Below are positions 19,186 to 27,668 of a stretch of DNA of 64,000 nucleotides, piece after piece. The stretch comes from Methylobacterium sp. AMS5 (lineage in GTDB: Bacteria > Pseudomonadota > Alphaproteobacteria > Rhizobiales > Beijerinckiaceae), in NCBI RefSeq assembly GCF_001542815.1, contig NZ_CP006992.1:2237501-2301500 (forward strand), written 5' to 3'. The position numbers and the translations under genes were made by a program. Positions within the stretch are counted from its first letter, which is position 1; every line of letters starts with the position of its first letter. The notes under the pieces are model-generated. The model was given only the letters and a program-made list of their open reading frames with translations. It ran no database searches and was not told the DNA's origin.

Positions 19186-19932
19186 ATGGCCCGCCGAACG
19201 GCCGAACCACCCGGCCCGCCGAGCCTCTCCGAGGCGGGGGCTCCGGCCCCAGCCGGGGAGGCCCGGCATTATCACGGCCACCGCGAGCGCCTGCGCACCC
19301 GCTTCGCCGATCACGGCGCCGAGGCACTGGCCGATTACGAACTGCTCGAACTCACCCTGTTCCGGGCAATCCCGCGGCGGGACGTCAAACCGCTCGCCAA
19401 GGCGCTGATCCACCGCTTCGGCTCGTTCGCCGAGGTGCTCAGCGCCGATCCCGCCCGGCTCGCGGAGGTCGAGGGGATCAGCGCCGGGGTTGTCGCCGAC
19501 CTCAAGCTGATCGAGGCCGCGGGCCGGCGGCTCGCCCGCGGCGCCATCGTTGAGCGACCGCTGCTCTCCGCGTGGAGCGCGCTCCTCGAATATCTGCGCG
19601 CCACCATGGCGTTCTCGGGCCGCGAGGAGTTCCGCCTGCTGTTCCTCGACCGGCGCAACCACCTCATCGCCGACGAGGTGCAGGGGCGCGGCACCGTCGA
19701 TCACACCCCGGTCTATCCCCGCGAGGTGGCGCGGCGGGCGCTCGAACTCTCCGCCACCGCGATCATCCTCGCCCACAACCACCCCTCCGGCGATCCGACG
19801 CCGTCGAACGCCGATATCCGCATGACCCGGGAGATCGTCTCGGTGCTCGGTCCGCTCGGCATCGTGGTGCACGACCACGTCATCCTGGGCCGCGACGGGC
19901 ATGCGAGCCTCAAGGGCCTCAAGCTGATCTGA
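19186..19932 (+). CDS. radC: RadC-family JAB-domain protein
   Basis: A 248-residue protein with an N-terminal helix-hairpin-helix region ([20 protein letters not shown]) and a C-terminal MPN/JAB metalloprotease-like domain with the ligands in [20 protein letters not shown] (His-x-His...Asp). The RadC name is historical; a DNA repair role is doubtful in the literature. Start ATG 19186, 13 bases after map, so they form an operon. Confidence 0.92.
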
Positions 19933-20184
19933 GCCGCAGACGTGCTCCCCGCCGAGCCTGCCGGCCGTGTCGGCAAAATTTTCCATGACTGGTTGTGCGA
20001 TCCTGCAACGAAGCGTCGCTTCGAGGGATGGGATTGCGCGCGGCTTCCGCTACATCGATCGCAGGGCCGCGGGTGCGGCGTGCCGCGGCGGCGGCGGGGC
20101 ACGGGGTTGCGGGGCCGGCGGAACGTCCGCCGCGTGGCCTGCCTCTTGCTCCGCTCGGACGACATCGCAGGGGGATTCGCGCGG

Positions 20185-21624
20185 ATGGCGCAGACGGCGT
20201 TCGACGAGATGAACGGGACAGGAACGGGCCAGCCCGATCCGGTTGTCGTGCGGGAGGCCTACGACATCCTCAAGTCGTGGCTCGACAAGACGCCGCCGGA
20301 GCATTTCAACACCCGCCGCAGCCAGGCCGAGATGCTGTTCCGGCGCATCGGCATCACCTTCGCGGTCTACGGCGCCAACGAATCGACCGAGCGGCTGATC
20401 CCGTTCGACATCATCCCGCGGGTGCTGACCAAGCCCGAATGGGACTTCCTCGAGCGGGGCCTGAAGCAGCGGGTCACCGCGCTCAACGCCTTCATCAACG
20501 ACATCTACGGCGCCGAGGAATGCATCAAGGCCGGTATCATCCCGGCCGACCTCGTCTACCGCAACCCGCATTACCGCATGGAGATGCGCGCCTTCGACGT
20601 GCCGCACGATCTCTACGTCCACATCGCCGGCATCGACATCGTGCGGACCGGCGAGAAGGACTTCTTCGTGCTGGAGGACAACGCCCGCACCCCATCCGGC
20701 GTCTCCTATATGCTGGAGAACCGCGAGGTGATGATGCGGCTCTTCCCCGAGCTGTTCTCCCGCCATCGCGTCGCGCCGGTCGAGAACTATCCCGACGCCC
20801 TGCTTGCGACCCTGCGCAGCCTCGCCCCGGCTTCCGCCACGCGGGACCCGACCGTCGTCCTGCTGACGCCCGGCCGCTACAACTCGGCCTTCTACGAGCA
20901 CTCCTTCCTGGCCGACAAACTCGGCGTCGAACTGGTGGAGGCGGGCGACCTCTTCACCAAGGACGAGGTCGTCTACATGCGCACCACCGAGGGGCCGCGC
21001 CGGGTCGACGTGATCTACCGTCGCCTCGACGACGACTTCCTCGATCCGCTCGTCTTCCGGCCGGACTCGGTGCTTGGCGTGCCCGGGCTGATGAACGCCT
21101 ACGAGCGGGGCAACGTCACCCTGTCGAACGCCGTCGGCACCGGTATCTCGGACGACAAGGCGGTCTACAGCTACATGCCGGAAATCGTGAAGTTCTTCAC
21201 CGGTGAGGAGCCGATCCTGCACAACGTGCCGACCCATCGCTGCCGCGAGAAGGACGCCTTCTCCTACGTGATGGACAACCTCAAGGACCTCGTTGTGAAG
21301 GAGGTCAACGGCTCGGGCGGCTACGGCATGCTGGTGGGCCCGCACGCGACGCGGCGCGAGATCGACGAATTCGCGAAGAAGCTGCGCCACGCGCCCGACA
21401 ACTTCATCGCCCAGCCGACGCTCTCGCTCTCCACCTGCCCGACCTTCGTCGCCTCGGGCGTCGCCCCGCGCCACGTCGATCTGCGCCCGTTCGTGCTGGC
21501 CGGCGCCGACGAGATCCGCATCGTGCCCGGCGGCCTGACCCGGGTTGCCCTGAAGGAAGGCTCGCTCGTGGTCAATTCGAGCCAGGGCGGCGGCACCAAG
21601 GATACCTGGGTGCTCGATGCCTGA
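20185..21624 (+). CDS. Circularly permuted ATP-grasp protein (Anbu cluster)
   Basis: A 479-residue member of the circularly permuted ATP-grasp type 2 family, predicted to form an ATP-dependent amide or peptide bond. It begins MAQTAFDEMNGTGTGQPDPV. Landmarks are KQRVTALNAFINDIYGAEEC, DFFVLEDNARTPSGVSYMLE and KEVNGSGGYGMLVGP (nucleotide-binding loop). ATG 20185 follows an AGGGGG site; upstream in-frame sequence is not protein-like. It heads a plus-strand set with an alpha-E gene, a transglutaminase and an Anbu hydrolase. That combination is known from comparative genomics as a predicted peptide-tagging or synthesis module; the substrate is unknown. Confidence 0.92.
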   Translation: MAQTAFDEMNGTGTGQPDPVVVREAYDILKSWLDKTPPEHFNTRRSQAEMLFRRIGITFAVYGANESTERLIPFDIIPRVLTKPEWDFLERGLKQRVTALNAFINDIYGAEECIKAGIIPADLVYRNPHYRMEMRAFDVPHDLYVHIAGIDIVRTGEKDFFVLEDNARTPSGVSYMLENREVMMRLFPELFSRHRVAPVENYPDALLATLRSLAPASATRDPTVVLLTPGRYNSAFYEHSFLADKLGVELVEAGDLFTKDEVVYMRTTEGPRRVDVIYRRLDDDFLDPLVFRPDSVLGVPGLMNAYERGNVTLSNAVGTGISDDKAVYSYMPEIVKFFTGEEPILHNVPTHRCREKDAFSYVMDNLKDLVVKEVNGSGGYGMLVGPHATRREIDEFAKKLRHAPDNFIAQPTLSLSTCPTFVASGVAPRHVDLRPFVLAGADEIRIVPGGLTRVALKEGSLVVNSSQGGGTKDTWVLDA

Positions 21625-21731
21625 GCGCTTCGCCCGATACTTTCGCAATCTTCAGGCGGGCCGGGCAGCGTCGGTGATGAAACACCGCGCATCTGCCGCC
21701 CTGGTCGCCAACGCGCCCGCGAGCTGACGCC

Positions 21732-22676
21732 ATGCTGTCCCGGACTGCCGACAACCTCTACTGGCTCTCGCGCTACGCCGAGCGCGCGGATTTCCTGGCC
21801 CGCATCCTCGACGCGGCGCTGCGGCTGGCGGCCCTGCCGTCGAGCTACGGCGGACGCACCTCGAACGAGTGGGCCTCCGCCCTGTCCTCGGCGGGCGATC
21901 CCGAGCTGTTCAAGACGCTCTACGATTCGGTCAACGAGCACACGGTCTGCAACTTCCTCGCCTTCTCGCCCCACAACCCGTCCTCGATCCGCTCCTGCAT
22001 CGCCACCGCGCGGGAGAACGCCCGCTCGATCCGCACGGCGCTCACCACCGAGATGTGGGACACGATCAACGGCGCCTATCTCGAACTACGGTCCTACGAG
22101 GGCCGCGACCTCTCGCGCGACGAGTTCACGCAGTTCCTCGACTGGGTGAAGCGCGTCTCGCTGACCTTCGACGGCTCGGCCTACCGGACGATGCTGCGCA
22201 ACGACGCCTACTGGTTCACCCGCGCCGGCACGGCGATCGAGCGGGCGGACAACACCGCGCGCATCCTCGACGTGAAGTACCAGATCCTGCTGCCGGCCTC
22301 GGAGCGGGTCGGCGGCTCGCTCGACTACTTCCAGTGGACGACGATCCTGCGCGAGGTCTCGGCCTTCAACGCCTACCACTGGGTCTACCGCGAGAGCATC
22401 AAGCCGGTTCTCGTCGCCGACCTGCTGATCCTCAACCCCGAGATGCCGCGCTCGCTCGCGAGTTGCTACCGCATGCTGGTGGAGCATCTCGATCTGATCG
22501 CCGACGCCTACGGTCGCCGTGGCGAGAGCCAGCGGCTTGCGAGCAATCTGCGGGCGAAGCTTCGCAGCGCTGAAATCGAGCGCGTCTTCGCCTCCGGCCT
22601 CCACGAGTTCATCCAGGGCTTCATCGTCGAGAACAACAGTCTCGGCGCCGCCATCAGCGAGCAGTATCTGGTGTGA
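21732..22676 (+). CDS. Alpha-E (DUF403) protein of the Anbu cluster
   Basis: A 314-residue all-helical protein beginning MLSRTADNLYWLSRYAERAD, the invariant opening of the alpha-E family. It also contains YWFTRAGTAIERADNTARIL, FQWTTILREVSAFNAYHWVY and NPEMPRSLASCYRMLVEHLD. The family is tied by conserved neighbourhood to circularly permuted ATP-grasp proteins and transglutaminases. Its biochemical role is not established. A perfect 17-base inverted repeat begins four bases after the stop. Confidence 0.93.
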   Translation: MLSRTADNLYWLSRYAERADFLARILDAALRLAALPSSYGGRTSNEWASALSSAGDPELFKTLYDSVNEHTVCNFLAFSPHNPSSIRSCIATARENARSIRTALTTEMWDTINGAYLELRSYEGRDLSRDEFTQFLDWVKRVSLTFDGSAYRTMLRNDAYWFTRAGTAIERADNTARILDVKYQILLPASERVGGSLDYFQWTTILREVSAFNAYHWVYRESIKPVLVADLLILNPEMPRSLASCYRMLVEHLDLIADAYGRRGESQRLASNLRAKLRSAEIERVFASGLHEFIQGFIVENNSLGAAISEQYLV

Positions 22677-22679
22677 GAG

Positions 22680-22734
22680 AGGCTCCCTGATACGGCCTCC
22701 GTTTCGATTCAGCGGACGCCGTATCAGGGAGCCT
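22680..22734. repeat. Perfect 17-base inverted repeat after the alpha-E gene
   Basis: AGGCTCCCTGATACGGC (22680-22696) and its exact complement GCCGTATCAGGGAGCCT (22718-22734) enclose a 21-base loop. It starts four bases after the alpha-E stop codon. There is no U-tract. Its sequence is unrelated to the GCATCGTCC palindromes. Confidence 0.85.
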
Positions 22735-23251
22735 GCGCTCTGCCCGAGCGAAGCCGAAATCCGCCCTCCCGAAAGGCACCGACCGGTTTCGGGAGAGGCG
22801 CTCGAAAGCTGGCCTGAGGGTGATCGGCGACGGGGTTCCGAGGCCGAGCGACCGCGCGGCGCCCCGCCATCGCGCGAAGACGCATGATACCTGTTCTCGG
22901 CGTGTAGGGCCAAAGATGGCGGCCGAGATTGCCGCGCCGCACATCGGGTTTGTCGAGTAAAGCACCCGAGCGGGCATAAAACTGGAAAAATGTGTCGGTT
23001 CACGGCAAGTCCGGCTCCGACACTCCATCAACATTGTTGCAGGTCGTCGCCTGAGCGGGCGCCCGGCACGGCTGCAAAGCATAAAAATAATCGACCGTGC
23101 ATTTTGGGGAGACGATCGCCGGCCGTCCTCCGACTGACATCGACTCCCGTTCGACCGCTGCGGCGCTCGAAGAGCGGGCGGCGCATATGCGCGATGAATT
23201 TCCTGCCAAAACCTTGTTCCGCTCGGCCGGCCCTGTGAGGATCTGCAAACG
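22735..23251. other. Intergenic region between alpha-E gene and MFS gene
   Basis: Apart from the two palindromes nothing coding is supported. Residual frames are arginine- and serine-rich. The part near 23080-23110 is AT-richer than its surroundings and may hold the promoter of the transporter gene, but no convincing -35/-10 pair was identified. Confidence 0.5.
22762..22800. repeat. Diverged palindromic repeat (TCCCGAAA core)
   Basis: Arms CTCCCGAAA (22766-22774) and TTTCGGGAG (22787-22795) match exactly. The flanks CGCC and GGCG also pair with one interruption. The central TCCCGAAA/TTTCGGGA core is that of the 12860 repeat, with altered outer arms. Confidence 0.6.
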
Positions 23252-24739
23252 ATGCTGTCGATGCATGTTGATGCCGAGAAGGATTGGAAGGCCTCGGACT
23301 GTACCGTCACCGAGCCGTCGACGATCCGTCGCGCGATCTCGGCGGCTTCGATCGGGAATGTCGCCGAGTGGTATGATTTCGGCGTCTATGCGTTCTTCGA
23401 GCCGACGATCCAGAAGGTGTTCTTCTCGAATCTCTCCCACACGATGGGGGAGATCGCGACCTTCGGGCTGTTTGCCGTCGCCTTCCTGATCCGGCCGCTC
23501 GGCGGCATGTTCTTCGGCCCGCTGGCCGACCGGATCGGCCGCAACAAGGTTCTTGCGGCCACGATGATCCTGATGGCCGTCGGCACCTTCGCGATCGGCT
23601 GCATTCCCAGTCAGGACAGCATCGGCATCGCCGCGCCCCTTCTCCTTCTCGTTGCCCGTCTGATCCAGGGCTTCTCCACCGGCGGCGAGTACGGGAGCGC
23701 CATGACCTTCATCGCCGAGTACGCCCCCGACCGGCGGCGGGGCTATCTCGGGAGTTGGTTGGAGTTCGGCACCTTCACCGGCTACCTGCTGGGCGCGATC
23801 GTCGTGACCGTGGCGGGTCTCGCCCTGACCGAGCAGCAACTGCTCGATTGGGGCTGGCGTCTGCCCTTCTTTCTGGCCCTGCCGCTCGGCCTCGTCGGCG
23901 TCTACCTGCGTTCGCAGCTCGCCGAGACCCCCGCCTTCGCCGCCCTCGAACAGGAGACGGAGGATCGCGAGAGGCGTCTGCGCGCGGGACAGACCGCGAA
24001 GGATATCCTGGTCCTCTGGCCCTACGTCCTCGTCTGCATGGGGCTCGCACTGGCCTGGAACGTGCCGAACTACATGCTGACCTCCTACATGCCGACCTAC
24101 GTCACGCAGACCTTGCCGATGATGCAGCAGGCCGGCGGCATCTCGCCGACGGAGTCTCAGGTTCTGCAGATTACGGTGATGGTGCTCGCGCTCCTGTCGA
24201 TCCCGTTTATCGGCCGCCTGTCCGACCGCTTCGGACGCAAGCCCTTCGCTCTGATCGGGGCGGTCGGCCTCGTGGTCATGGCCCTGCCGATGATCCTGCT
24301 GATCCGCAGTCAGAGCGAGGCCGCGGTCTTCCTCGGCCTGCTGATCATGGGGCTGCTGCTGATCTGCTTCAGCGCCACGATGCCTTCGACGTTGCCGGCC
24401 CTCTTCCCCACGAACCTGCGGGCGAGCGGTCTCTCGATCTCGTTCAACGTGTCCGTCTCGCTCTTCGCCGGAACGACGTCGGTCGTCGTCGGATCGCTCG
24501 TGGCGTATACCGGCGACCTCAATTGGCCCGCCTATTACCTGATGATCGCCGGCGTGATCGGCGTGGTCTCGATCCTCCTCATCCGCGAACCCAACGGCAA
24601 GCGCATGTGGGGCTCGCCGCCGGCCGCGGCGAGCGAGCAGGAGGCGCACGACCTCGTCCGGAGCGACAACCCAGGTTCGGTCGGCAGCGGACCGGGACTG
24701 CCGGGGCCGGGCAGGGCCGTGCGGGGCCGGATGGCCTGA
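23252..24739 (+). CDS. MFS transporter, metabolite:H+ symporter (ProP-like) type
   Basis: A 495-residue transporter with twelve predicted membrane segments. The MHS-family signature ASIGNVAEWYDFGVYAFFEP is near residue 32, and RLIQGFSTGGEYGSAMTFIA holds the family's conserved Gly-Glu-Tyr segment. Loops DRIGRNK and DRFGRKP are the two MFS A-motifs. These transporters take up proline/betaine, citrate, ketoglutarate or similar solutes; the substrate cannot be chosen. ATG 23252 follows GAGGA at about ten bases. It sits between the alpha-E and transglutaminase genes of the Anbu set and has its own long upstream region. Confidence 0.92.
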   Translation: MLSMHVDAEKDWKASDCTVTEPSTIRRAISAASIGNVAEWYDFGVYAFFEPTIQKVFFSNLSHTMGEIATFGLFAVAFLIRPLGGMFFGPLADRIGRNKVLAATMILMAVGTFAIGCIPSQDSIGIAAPLLLLVARLIQGFSTGGEYGSAMTFIAEYAPDRRRGYLGSWLEFGTFTGYLLGAIVVTVAGLALTEQQLLDWGWRLPFFLALPLGLVGVYLRSQLAETPAFAALEQETEDRERRLRAGQTAKDILVLWPYVLVCMGLALAWNVPNYMLTSYMPTYVTQTLPMMQQAGGISPTESQVLQITVMVLALLSIPFIGRLSDRFGRKPFALIGAVGLVVMALPMILLIRSQSEAAVFLGLLIMGLLLICFSATMPSTLPALFPTNLRASGLSISFNVSVSLFAGTTSVVVGSLVAYTGDLNWPAYYLMIAGVIGVVSILLIREPNGKRMWGSPPAAASEQEAHDLVRSDNPGSVGSGPGLPGPGRAVRGRMA

Positions 24740-24853
24740 ACAGCGGATCCTGCCAGAACCCGTGCTGTCTTCATCGGGCACGGGCTTCTCGCACTCTCGC
24801 GTCGCTCAGGGTCGAATCTCGGAGCGCCCCGCTCGAAGCGAAGCGCCGTGCGG

Positions 24854-25033
24854 TCAGTCGCCGTACCTGTCGTATCGCCGCCCCTCGTTGTACCGGGAGC
24901 TGCGATACGACCGGCCGTAATGACCGCCGAAATCGTGCTTGCGCCGCCATCCATGGGCCGGGGCCGATCCATGATGGGGTCCGCCGAGAAAACGCGCTCT
25001 GCCAAAGCTTTGAGCAAGCTTCCCGATTTCCAA
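24854..25033 (-). CDS. Possible small Arg/Tyr/Gly-rich protein, TTG start
   Basis: An open frame of 59 codons from TTG 25033 to TGA 24854, with AAGGA seven bases before the TTG and an in-frame TAG just upstream. The C-terminal half reads WRRKHDFGGHYGRSYRSSRY and ends RRYDRYGD. This biased composition is unlike random translation of GC-rich DNA here. It has no ATG or GTG start and is short, so automated calling may miss it. No family recognised. It lies on the strand opposite to its neighbours, in the gap between the MFS and transglutaminase genes. Confidence 0.4.
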   Translation of the reverse strand: MEIGKLAQSFGRARFLGGPHHGSAPAHGWRRKHDFGGHYGRSYRSSRYNEGRRYDRYGD

Positions 25034-25084
25034 AGTGCCGTCCTTGCCCTAGCTTGCCGCAAGTCGTCCCGGCAGGATCAAGGC

Positions 25085-25945
25085 ATGCGCATCCGGATCG
25101 TCCACGATACGGTCTATACGTACCAGCAGCCCGCGCGGGGCCTGATTCAGATCCTGCGGCTGACGCCCCGTGACCATGACGGTCAGCATGTGCGCGAGTG
25201 GCGGATCGAGCCCTCCGTCAACGGACGGCTCACCGCGCGCGAGGACGGGTTCGGCAATCTCGTCCACTGGTTCACCGCCGACGATCCCACCGACGCGCTC
25301 ACCGTGCGGGTGACCGGCGAGATCGAAACCTTCGAGACCAGCGGTGTCGTGCGCGGCGCGGTGGAGCGCCTCCCCGATCTGTTCTACCTGCGCGACACCC
25401 CGCTGACCGAGGCGAGCCCGGAACTCAAGGCCTTCGCGGAGAGGGTCGCGGGCAAGGGGGAGCGTGATGCGCTGCCGATGCTGCACCGCTTGCTCGCCGC
25501 CGTCCACGACACCGTGACCTTCGAACCGGGCCCGACCAGCGCCAGCACCAGTGCCGCCCAATCCTTCGAGGTCGGGAAGGGCGTGTGCCAGGATCTCACC
25601 CACATCTTCCTCGCCGCTGCCCGGCATCTGGAGATCCCGTCGCGCTACGTCTCCGGCTATTTCCGCCGCGACGACGGCGCCGACGACCAGAAGGCGGGGC
25701 ATGCCTGGGCGGAATCACTGGTGCCGGGCCTCGGCTGGATCGGGTTCGACCCGGCCAACGGCATCTCCGCGACCGAGGCGCATGTGCGCGTCGCCGTCGG
25801 CCTCGACTATCTCGGCGCCGCGCCGATCCGCGGCAGCCGCGTCGGCGGAGGCACCGAAACCCTCGACGTGGCCCTGCGCGTCGAGCAGGTGCATTCCCAA
25901 TCGCAGTCTCAGGGCCACGGTCAGCAGAGCCAGAGTCAAAGCTAA
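25085..25945 (+). CDS. Transglutaminase-like cysteine protease family protein (Anbu cluster)
   Basis: A 286-residue cytosolic protein beginning MRIRIVHDTVYTYQQPARGL, the typical bacterial transglutaminase N-terminal domain. The catalytic triad is visible: Cys in GKGVCQDLTHIFLAAARHLE, His in KAGHAWAESLVPGLGWIGFD, and Asp in that same FDPANG segment. Bacterial members are thought to act as peptidases or amide-bond enzymes. The last 20 residues form a Ser/Gln-rich tail (HSQSQSQGHGQQSQSQS). ATG 25085 is the family start; sequence upstream in frame is noncoding. It precedes the Anbu gene by 154 bases. Confidence 0.92.
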   Translation: MRIRIVHDTVYTYQQPARGLIQILRLTPRDHDGQHVREWRIEPSVNGRLTAREDGFGNLVHWFTADDPTDALTVRVTGEIETFETSGVVRGAVERLPDLFYLRDTPLTEASPELKAFAERVAGKGERDALPMLHRLLAAVHDTVTFEPGPTSASTSAAQSFEVGKGVCQDLTHIFLAAARHLEIPSRYVSGYFRRDDGADDQKAGHAWAESLVPGLGWIGFDPANGISATEAHVRVAVGLDYLGAAPIRGSRVGGGTETLDVALRVEQVHSQSQSQGHGQQSQSQS

Positions 25946-25974
25946 AGTCTTGGCCAGAGCTTGGGCCAAGGCCG

Positions 25975-26004
25975 AGCCGGCACCGGGCCTTGGGTCCGGC
26001 TTTT
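25975..26004 (+). terminator. Terminator-like hairpin between transglutaminase and Anbu genes
   Basis: GCCGG (from about 25976) pairs with CCGGC (25996-26000), extended by further pairs. TTTT and then a run of A residues follow (26001-26011). This resembles a weak intrinsic terminator on the plus strand and may lower transcription into the Anbu gene. Stem pairing beyond five base pairs is imperfect. Confidence 0.45.
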
Positions 26005-26099
26005 AAAAAAAGTTGTCTTGCCGGGCCGGCTCGGAGCGTGCGATGCGAGCCGCCTGAACCTGCCCGGCGCACGGGCTCCTGCCTGAGGCGGCGACCGCC

Positions 26100-26846
26100 A
26101 TGACCTACTGCGTCGGAGTGCTCGTCGAGGACGGGCTGGTGATGATCGCCGACACCCGCACCAATGCGGGGCTCGACAACATCTCGACCTTCCGCAAGCT
26201 GCACATGTTCAACACGCCGAATGAGCGCGTGATGATGCTGGCCTCGGCCGGCAACCTGTCCATGACGCAATCGGTGCTCAGCATGCTCCGCGAGGGCGTG
26301 GACGACATCGAGGGCGAGACGCCGGCCAAGCTCAAGGACGCGGCCACGATGTTCAAGGCGGCCCAGCTCGTCGGCCGGGCGATTCGCCGGGTACGCGAGA
26401 TCGAGGCGGCCGGGTTCGAGGCAGCCAACCTGCGCATGGAGGTCTCGTTCCTGTTCGGTGGTCAGATCGGCACCGAGCCGATGCGGCTGTTCATGATCTA
26501 CTCGGCCGGCAATTTCATCGAGTGCAGCCGCGAGGCGCCGTTCCTCCAGATCGGCGAGCACAAATACGGCAAGCCGATCCTCGACCGGGCCGTGACCTTC
26601 GAGACCGACCTCTACGACGCGCTGAAGGTGGGCCTCGTCTCGATGGATTCGACCATGCGCTCGAATCTCGGCGTCGGCCTGCCGATCGACATCGCCGTGC
26701 AGCGCCGCGGCGCCCTCGACCTCGAAGTGAGCCATCGCATCGAGGCCGGCGAGAGCTACTTTCACGATCTGCGCGAGCGCTGGTCGGCGGCGCTCCGCGC
26801 GGCGCACCGCGCGATTCCGCGCCCGCCCTACGGGCCGCAGCGCTAA
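26100..26846 (+). CDS. Anbu, proteasome-like Ntn-hydrolase
   Basis: A 248-residue bacterial proteasome homologue (ancestral beta subunit). After removal of Met1 the chain begins TYCVGVLVEDGLVMIADTRT, placing the nucleophile at Thr1, the conserved acid at Asp17 and Lys at position 32, matching the Thr-Asp-Lys arrangement of Ntn proteases. KLHMFNTPNERVMMLASAGN is also typical. Known Anbu proteins assemble into open rings; the substrate and partner are not established. Last gene of the ATP-grasp/alpha-E/transglutaminase set. Start ATG 26100 is fixed by the need for a threonine at position 2. Confidence 0.95.
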   Translation: MTYCVGVLVEDGLVMIADTRTNAGLDNISTFRKLHMFNTPNERVMMLASAGNLSMTQSVLSMLREGVDDIEGETPAKLKDAATMFKAAQLVGRAIRRVREIEAAGFEAANLRMEVSFLFGGQIGTEPMRLFMIYSAGNFIECSREAPFLQIGEHKYGKPILDRAVTFETDLYDALKVGLVSMDSTMRSNLGVGLPIDIAVQRRGALDLEVSHRIEAGESYFHDLRERWSAALRAAHRAIPRPPYGPQR

Positions 26847-26865
26847 AGCGCATCCCGACGAAGGG

Positions 26866-26894
26866 GACGCCTCTTCGGCAAAAGAAGGCGCGTC
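26866..26894. terminator. Hairpin between converging Anbu and sirtuin genes
   Basis: GACGCCTCTTC (26866-26876) and GAAGGCGCGTC (26884-26894) pair over eleven positions with one mismatch and one wobble, with loop GGCAAAA. It lies 19 bases after the Anbu stop and could end transcription from either side, although a strong U-tract is missing. Confidence 0.55.
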
Positions 26895-26960
26895 ACAACA
26901 AGGGCCGAGAGGCGCCGGCCCGATGCAATGGGGTCGGGTACGGCTCTCGGCGCAGACGCA

Positions 26961-27668
26961 TTAGGCGCCGCTCAAGACCTCTTCGACGAAGGCCGGCACG
27001 GTTTCGCTCGCGCGCCCGAGCCGGGTCGCCTCGAACAAGCCGGCATTGTCGGCGGCCTCGAGCGTGAGGGCGAGCGTCGGGATGCCGAAGGCGCGGGCCT
27101 GCGCCACGTAGCCCGCCGCCGGGTAGACCGCACCGGAGGTGCCGATCGCCACGAACAGGTCGGCCTCGGCGAGCGCCTCGTCGATCGCTTCGAGGTGCTG
27201 GGGCATCTCGCCGAACCAAACCACGTCGGGCCGCATCCCGCCGCTATGACCGCAATGCGGGCATGGGGTCTCGACGGTGAGATCCTCGTGCCAGACGGTG
27301 TCCGTCGCGCAGGCGGTGCAGCGGGCCTTCCGCAACTCGCCGTGCATGTGCACCACGTGGCGCGAGCCGGCCCGCTCGTGCAGATCGTCGATGTTCTGCG
27401 TGCACAGGAACAGCCGGCCGCCGCGCTCCGCCAAGCCCGCTTCCAGCCGGGCCAGCGCCCCATGTGCAGGGTTCGGTGCGGCGGCGCGGGCGTCGCGGCG
27501 GCGATGATTGTAGAAGTCGTGGACCAGCACCGGATCGGCGGCGAAGCCTTCGGGCGTCGCGAGGCGCATCGGGTCGAACCGGGCCCACGCGCCGTCCGTG
27601 TCGCGGAACGTGCCGAGCCCGCTTTCGGCGGAGATTCCGGCACCCGTCAGAACGAAGATGTTGGTCAT
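26961..27668 (-). CDS. cobB: NAD-dependent protein deacylase, sirtuin (CobB type)
   Basis: A 235-residue sirtuin that would remove acyl groups from lysines using NAD+. Motifs: NIFVLTGAGISAESGLGTFRD (NAD loop, residues 3-23), TQNIDDLHERAG, catalytic His in VVHMHGELR, zinc ligands CTAC and CPHC, and GTSGAVYPAA. Tyr53 and Arg56 (FYNHRRR) match the Tyr-x-x-Arg pair that in class III sirtuins favours succinyl/malonyl lysine. Start MTNIFVL at 27668; four extra residues are possible. Eight bases downstream of the CBS-domain gene, so probably one transcript. Confidence 0.93.
   Translation of the reverse strand: MTNIFVLTGAGISAESGLGTFRDTDGAWARFDPMRLATPEGFAADPVLVHDFYNHRRRDARAAAPNPAHGALARLEAGLAERGGRLFLCTQNIDDLHERAGSRHVVHMHGELRKARCTACATDTVWHEDLTVETPCPHCGHSGGMRPDVVWFGEMPQHLEAIDEALAEADLFVAIGTSGAVYPAAGYVAQARAFGIPTLALTLEAADNAGLFEATRLGRASETVPAFVEEVLSGA

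Follow-up and report, generated by a model that had tools for sequence, protein, structure and literature searches.

The Anbu gene set and the transporter gene within it

The window analysed here is a stretch of 64,000 nucleotides from Methylobacterium sp. AMS5 (contig NZ_CP006992.1; G000:C1:2237501-2301500 in our genome set, in which G000 is the window genome), and the system in question is the gene set around Anbu, a proteasome-like Ntn hydrolase. Based on the open reading frames (ORFs) and their profile matches, five genes follow each other on the plus strand. The first is a circularly permuted ATP-grasp gene (20185..21624; PF14403, CP_ATPgrasp_2, 545 bits; PF04174, 501 bits). Its mechanically listed ORF begins at 19942, and the start adopted here is the ATG at 20185 chosen in the original prediction, which had been made from the letters of the window. 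It is followed by the alpha-E gene (21732..22676; PF04168, 322 bits), an inserted gene for a major facilitator superfamily (MFS) transporter of the MHS type, nearest to ProP (23252..24739), a transglutaminase-like gene (TG, 25085..25945; PF08379 in the N-terminal part and PF01841 as the core) and Anbu itself (26100..26846). The order of the four genes of the set is kept, and their contiguity is broken by the insert, which is flanked by long spacers of 575 bp (alpha-E to MFS) and 345 bp (MFS to TG); TG and Anbu are separated by 154 bp. Strand, gene order and a long spacer between alpha-E and TG had all been described in the original prediction and stand as described.

The Anbu protein reaches merely 24.5 bits with the Pfam Proteasome model, versus 265 bits with the Anbu chain 5loy, and matches the PDB Anbu chains 5loy, 5nyj, 5nyf, 5lox and 5nyw with E-values of 8e-60 to 6e-78. 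After the initiator Met its translation holds T1, D17 and K32, so that the set previously called intact is indeed present. In the available excerpts of PMC6376114, these three residues (the last as Lys32/33) are named as the candidate catalytic set of Yersinia bercovieri Anbu, and the ATP-grasp protein of Y. bercovieri is described as releasing orthophosphate from ATP. According to the excerpts of PMC6376114 and PMC5666114, Anbu structures have been solved and no peptidase or amidase activity was detected, the physiological role is unconfirmed and expression is raised under nitrogen limitation; through the same excerpts, the Anbu operon can be traced to Iyer et al. 2009 and Valas and Bourne 2008. 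The ATP-grasp family COG2308 is merely named among regions tied to nodule competition in the excerpt of PMC8407117, and a literature search combining Methylorubrum, proteasome and transglutaminase found no paper. Compared with the known Anbu operon, the window has all four genes, in the same order and on the same strand, with an Anbu near the solved chains and the residues T1, D17 and K32. It differs in having the MFS gene and a dispersed repeat between alpha-E and TG, as well as a clade-specific leader before TG.

Gene order and distribution across the genus

Nine window proteins were mapped on 100 loci, namely the best 80 of 579 named contigs and 20 stretches from 20 genomes (G037, G039 and G101 occur in both sets). 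Methylorubrum are pink-pigmented bacteria, and 77 of the named loci (L004-L080) lie outside this group, with 12 of them lacking one or both of alpha-E and TG. The gap between these two genes is 395 bp or less in all 65 that hold both, and none of the 77 gave a match to the MFS protein above 50% identity. Within the genus, Anbu was found in 110 of 111 genomes, the exception (G078) being 70% complete, and a close alpha-E (77% identity or more) is likewise present in 110, with G078 having a distant match alone. The Methylorubrum clade was defined as the 18 genomes with an alpha-E at least 93% identical to that of the window (next best, 86%). In all 92 non-Methylorubrum genomes having both alpha-E and Anbu, the two are on one contig, and the distance from the alpha-E stop to the Anbu start ranges from 888 to 4634 bp (median 917), with 89 at 1500 bp or less. 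The other three (G004, G048, G072) still have alpha-E next to TG, and it is the TG–Anbu interval that holds the additional DNA. By the same measure, 13 of the 17 assessable Methylorubrum genomes exceed 1500 bp, versus 3/92 of the others (Fisher p 5e-11, counting genomes and not events, a value that is too small because genomes share descent).

For the transporter, a search of the genus with up to 14 candidates scored per genome gave full-length matches of 81% or more in 14 genomes. In 11 of them the match is at the Anbu locus, and the other three (G002, G005 and G036) have an unlinked orthologue of 81-82% elsewhere. Beyond these, a 52% relative lies in G040 at a distance of ~27 kb from Anbu, and the match in G094 (81%) is limited to residues 1-154; other matches among those listed are at 39% or less, and no other genome has a best E-value better than 2e-87. 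Of the 18 Methylorubrum genomes, 11 have the gene at the site, and six (G039, G040, G064, G099, G101, G110), all of which keep the four genes, lack it there; in G037 the contigs break in the gap, so that 17 genomes are readable. None of the 92 other genus genomes with Anbu has it at the locus, and three of them carry it elsewhere. An order-wide search of 296 other genomes (5 of this genus), with at most five candidates per genome and weaker relatives outside its reach, gave no orthologue at E <= 1e-150. The original prediction had offered two alternatives, a transporter inserted into the operon or one belonging to the system as exporter or importer of its product. Insertion is supported and membership is not: the distribution across the genus rules against the transporter as a component of the Anbu system. 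The refuting condition attached to the original prediction speaks against a functional link, as relatives have the set contiguous without an MFS gene and orthologues occur away from Anbu.

Two further observations concern the set itself. In G046 (L094), G101 (L095) and G045 (L096) the Anbu cluster has the opposite orientation with respect to the flanking genes, with SIR2/CNNM genes upstream and RadC/methionine aminopeptidase genes downstream. Also, two or more alpha-E matches were obtained in 106/111 genus genomes, the window genome having just one. The second match is distant (27-30% identity in the rows listed), mostly within open frames of ~860 codons or more, and perhaps represents an ATP-grasp/alpha-E fusion.

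A deletion footprint between the transporter and TG

The spacer between MFS and TG (24740-25084) was compared with the corresponding region of L082 by blastn. Its segments 24740-24965 and 24961-25084 match in two pieces that are 1982 bp apart in L082 and overlap by 5 bp in the window, which places a deletion junction at 24961..24965. The MFS–TG gap is 2.3-2.5 kb in six of the 11 MFS loci (L082, L083, L084, L086, L087 and L089), and in all six the left matching piece ends at the identical base. Adjoining the junction, the minus-strand translation of 24854..24965 gives the C-terminal stub of a gene for a small secreted-type protein, the remainder of which is deleted. The window strain has lost ~2 kb of a secreted-protein block. 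In the six long-gap loci this block contains two small Ser/Gly/Thr-rich proteins on the minus strand (87-100% identity, searched with the L087 proteins without composition correction), which have signal-peptide-like starts and repeated STVGTGGSSAG-type units. One of them is also found upstream of TG in G037 (L085, 84%), and a partial match in G099. The window itself gives no match to the two L087 proteins, and its stub belongs to a neighbouring gene. Other genes were noticed by eye in the cluster of relatives: a PAP2-like gene between alpha-E and TG in G064 (L091) and, in G099 (L097), an ion-channel-like gene at the same place together with a TonB-receptor-like gene between TG and Anbu. In G045 (L096) there is a 1.2-kb insert between TG and Anbu.

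A conserved leader upstream of TG

Directly upstream of TG in all 18 Methylorubrum genomes lies a 49-nt leader, CTTTGRGCA-N8-GATTTYCAAA-N11-GYCCTAGCTTG (25008..25056, plus strand), a candidate promoter delimited by alignment and pattern counts, with two dyads recognised by eye at 25002-25013 and 25024-25037. Allowing up to three mismatches, the pattern occurs once in each of these 18 genomes, the same ones that were grouped by alpha-E identity, and in none of the 93 others, and the reversed control pattern has no matches. Among 17 aligned loci, 26 of the 57 columns of 25000-25056 are invariant, versus 0/45 just upstream. Of five other Methylobacterium loci compared, four have just 31-50 nt between alpha-E and TG, hardly any space or none for the leader, and in the fifth the intervening 130 nt do not contain it. 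G039, where the site is empty, has a gap of 110 bp that is mostly taken up by the leader together with its downstream part.

This arrangement suggests that the four-gene set is split into two transcription units. Continued co-transcription of alpha-E, MFS, TG and Anbu as one operon, the insertion being neutral, would agree with the shared strand and with the finding of no T-tailed terminator after alpha-E. However, conserved leaders precede both MFS and TG, a strong hairpin stands just past alpha-E, and minus-strand genes separate MFS from TG in 6/10 relatives with MFS at the site, so that we regard a single operon as unlikely and prefer the division into two units.

Identity and history of the transporter

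The MFS protein scores above gathering with PF00083 (Sugar_tr, 156 bits) and PF07690 (MFS_1, 134 bits). Its best NCBIfam model is ProP NF007927, with 493.4 bits (curated cut-off, 544), and TIGR00883 (MHS metabolite:H+ symporter) gives 378.3 bits (curated cut-off, 443.45). It resembles the ProP/MHS branch in that both matches span nearly the whole protein, but it stays under both cut-offs. A C-terminal coiled coil is a known feature of ProP. Among the best 120 of 7997 scored candidates, the relatives outside the genus are, among others, a Beijerinckiaceae protein (81%) and proteins of 71-74% titled Nocardioidaceae, Nocardioides, Marmoricola, Skermania and Pseudonocardia (actinobacterial names), and many further matches listed bear the annotation proline/betaine transporter. 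The protein probably imports a compatible solute of the proline/betaine type and is probably expressed as a separate transcription unit. Some 170-260 bp upstream of the gene, a block of the form (T/C)GTCG...CAA(G/C)TC aligns in 14/14 orthologues, 11 linked and three unlinked. In the window it reads TGTCG-N5-CGGCA (22993..23007, plus strand) and is a candidate operator. Measured against the strict palindrome TGTCG-N5-CGACA, each aligned copy has one to three mismatches, and the site in L100 that fits the palindrome best lies outside the block. Since linked and unlinked copies have this leader in common, the gene seems to travel with it.

A tree of the operon (17 Methylorubrum loci and four outgroups; G037 omitted) and a tree of the transporter concur in their main groups, and they fit one gain of MFS before the suomiense group split off, followed by about five losses. 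The gene was probably inserted once and then lost in several relatives, and it is therefore most likely a lodger and not a part of the machinery. A clade-specific accessory, which would carry a substrate or product of the Anbu system through the membrane (e.g., a peptide or a small amidated compound), finds some support in the identical site and orientation in 11/18 Methylorubrum genomes and in the transporter tree following the operon in the main groups. Against it stand the six genomes that keep all four genes without MFS at the site, the 92 further Anbu-bearing genomes with none at the locus (three carrying it elsewhere), the gene's own leader, and the 71-74% relatives with actinobacterial names and the proline/betaine annotations among the matches listed. 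Taken together, these make an accessory role very unlikely, and a lodger remains the preferred reading.

A dispersed double-hairpin repeat after alpha-E

Just downstream of alpha-E lies an inverted repeat (22680..22734) with 22-nt arms at 22680-22701 and 22713-22734, in which the first 17 nt are perfect and the 22 nt pair at 95%. For the 75 nt that follow the alpha-E stop, the folding energy is -52.3 kcal/mol, and the hairpin may end or stabilise the alpha-E transcript. The perfect 17-base inverted repeat pointed out originally is thus real. It is not special to this locus, as it includes the first of the two hairpins in a dispersed element of ~115 bp, one copy of which lies here (22688..22803, plus strand, beginning 11 nt past the alpha-E stop). 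The copy is supported by blastn and pattern matches elsewhere in the window genome and in related ones and by the covariance model R1 (93.6 bits, the window's own copy being among the 14 seeds). These seeds, four of them from the window genome, are aligned copies picked from 32 stretches plus the window, leaving out duplicates, cut or degenerate copies and those with an extra internal hairpin. R1 matches were found in at least 73/111 genus genomes, the counts being lower bounds because 33 candidates were scored in each genome listed. The window genome has 28 matches at about 26 places, two of them being reverse readings of another match. In 14 of its 15 strongest copies the centre falls outside any predicted coding ORF, and eight of the 15 start no more than 12 nt from the stop codon of a same-direction predicted gene or share that codon, with ORFs judged by a composition filter and not by a gene caller. 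In 17 Methylorubrum stretches searched, copies follow alpha-E only in G014 and G060, besides the window, and three more occupy other gaps of the cluster (G099, G069, G110). In the remaining loci, none was matched behind alpha-E at E <= 0.01 (the G037 stretch being without alpha-E). Five tandem copies with a period of about 105 bp were seen at G102:C9:58480-59015.

The repeat resembles REP/BIME-type repeats in being short, dispersed, hairpin-forming and mostly intergenic, with many copies (about 26 places) and 14/15 of the strongest outside coding ORFs, whereas its sequence is its own. In the literature searched no description of it was found; the available excerpt of PMC2680597 has island palindromes and a MITE, which are other elements. 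Several other identities were considered and set aside. An exact 14-mer of the palindrome occurs in the window genome only in its two arms and in 0/100 of the loci fetched, which had suggested a private site, and the pattern, blastn and covariance searches then revealed the diverged family. An intrinsic terminator was rejected, as there is no T run and no terminator-like site at 22680-22734. The match to the microRNA family RF04121 (26.1 bits versus a gathering score of 66) was taken as chance, and no Rfam family attains its gathering score within 19900-27000. A plasmid search with the spacer gave one weak match, covering the end of alpha-E. A role in regulation or recombination specific to this operon is highly improbable for the inverted repeat: the strong hairpin, its recurrence in the corresponding position of G014 and G060 and the two-sided changes that keep pairing (by eye) are outweighed by its membership, as a diverged copy, in a repeat family with 28 matches in the window genome and matches in 73/111 genus genomes, and by the remaining Methylorubrum loci of the 17 searched, which gave no match behind alpha-E.

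Interpretation

We consider it very likely that the window holds an ordinary four-gene Anbu cluster, one gap of which became a site for cargo after TG and Anbu gained their own leader, and in which the transporter is a lodger. In the ancestor of Methylorubrum, TG-Anbu would have acquired the conserved leader, most likely a promoter, and this new promoter would have split the operon into an ATP-grasp/alpha-E half and a TG/Anbu half. The stretch between the alpha-E stop and the TG leader would then have been free to accept DNA, and the insertion of foreign genes there would have left TG and Anbu expressed. The cargo taken would comprise the ProP-type transporter with its own leader, the minus-strand secreted-type genes and the dispersed hairpin repeat and, in relatives, an apparent PAP2 phosphatase or ion-channel gene; the deletion of about 2 kb from the secreted-protein block would have followed later in the window strain.

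Several points weigh against this interpretation. In 11 of the clade's genomes the transporter is still at this exact position and in this orientation, even where the cluster is inverted (G045 and G046), and such retention counts against a lodger because a pure lodger need not stay. The presence of the TG leader in 18 genomes follows by construction, as the pattern was written from those sequences, and only its absence elsewhere and its single copy are informative. A sigma-70 consensus scan found no plus-strand site in 22600-26150, and the putative promoter role of the MFS and TG leaders was read from sequence. Finally, some nodes are weak in both trees (37-41% in the operon tree and 30-38% in the MFS tree), and for this reason the number of losses, as well as a single gain versus recombination, is uncertain.

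A more far-reaching idea joins two proposals, namely that the halves of the Methylorubrum set are separately regulated through a two-dyad TG/Anbu promoter, so that a making step by ATP-grasp and alpha-E could be uncoupled from the step of TG and Anbu, and that the ProP-like transporter, retained next to the set in 11 genomes, supplies or clears a small amino compound for the system. We hold this combination to be a long shot. Under the preferred interpretation, the transporter next to Anbu is a misleading clue, unfit for guessing the Anbu substrate. Two useful leads remain: a clade that has a conserved leader before TG/Anbu and may express the two halves separately, and a repeat, widespread in the genus, that scans of gene context will encounter again and again.

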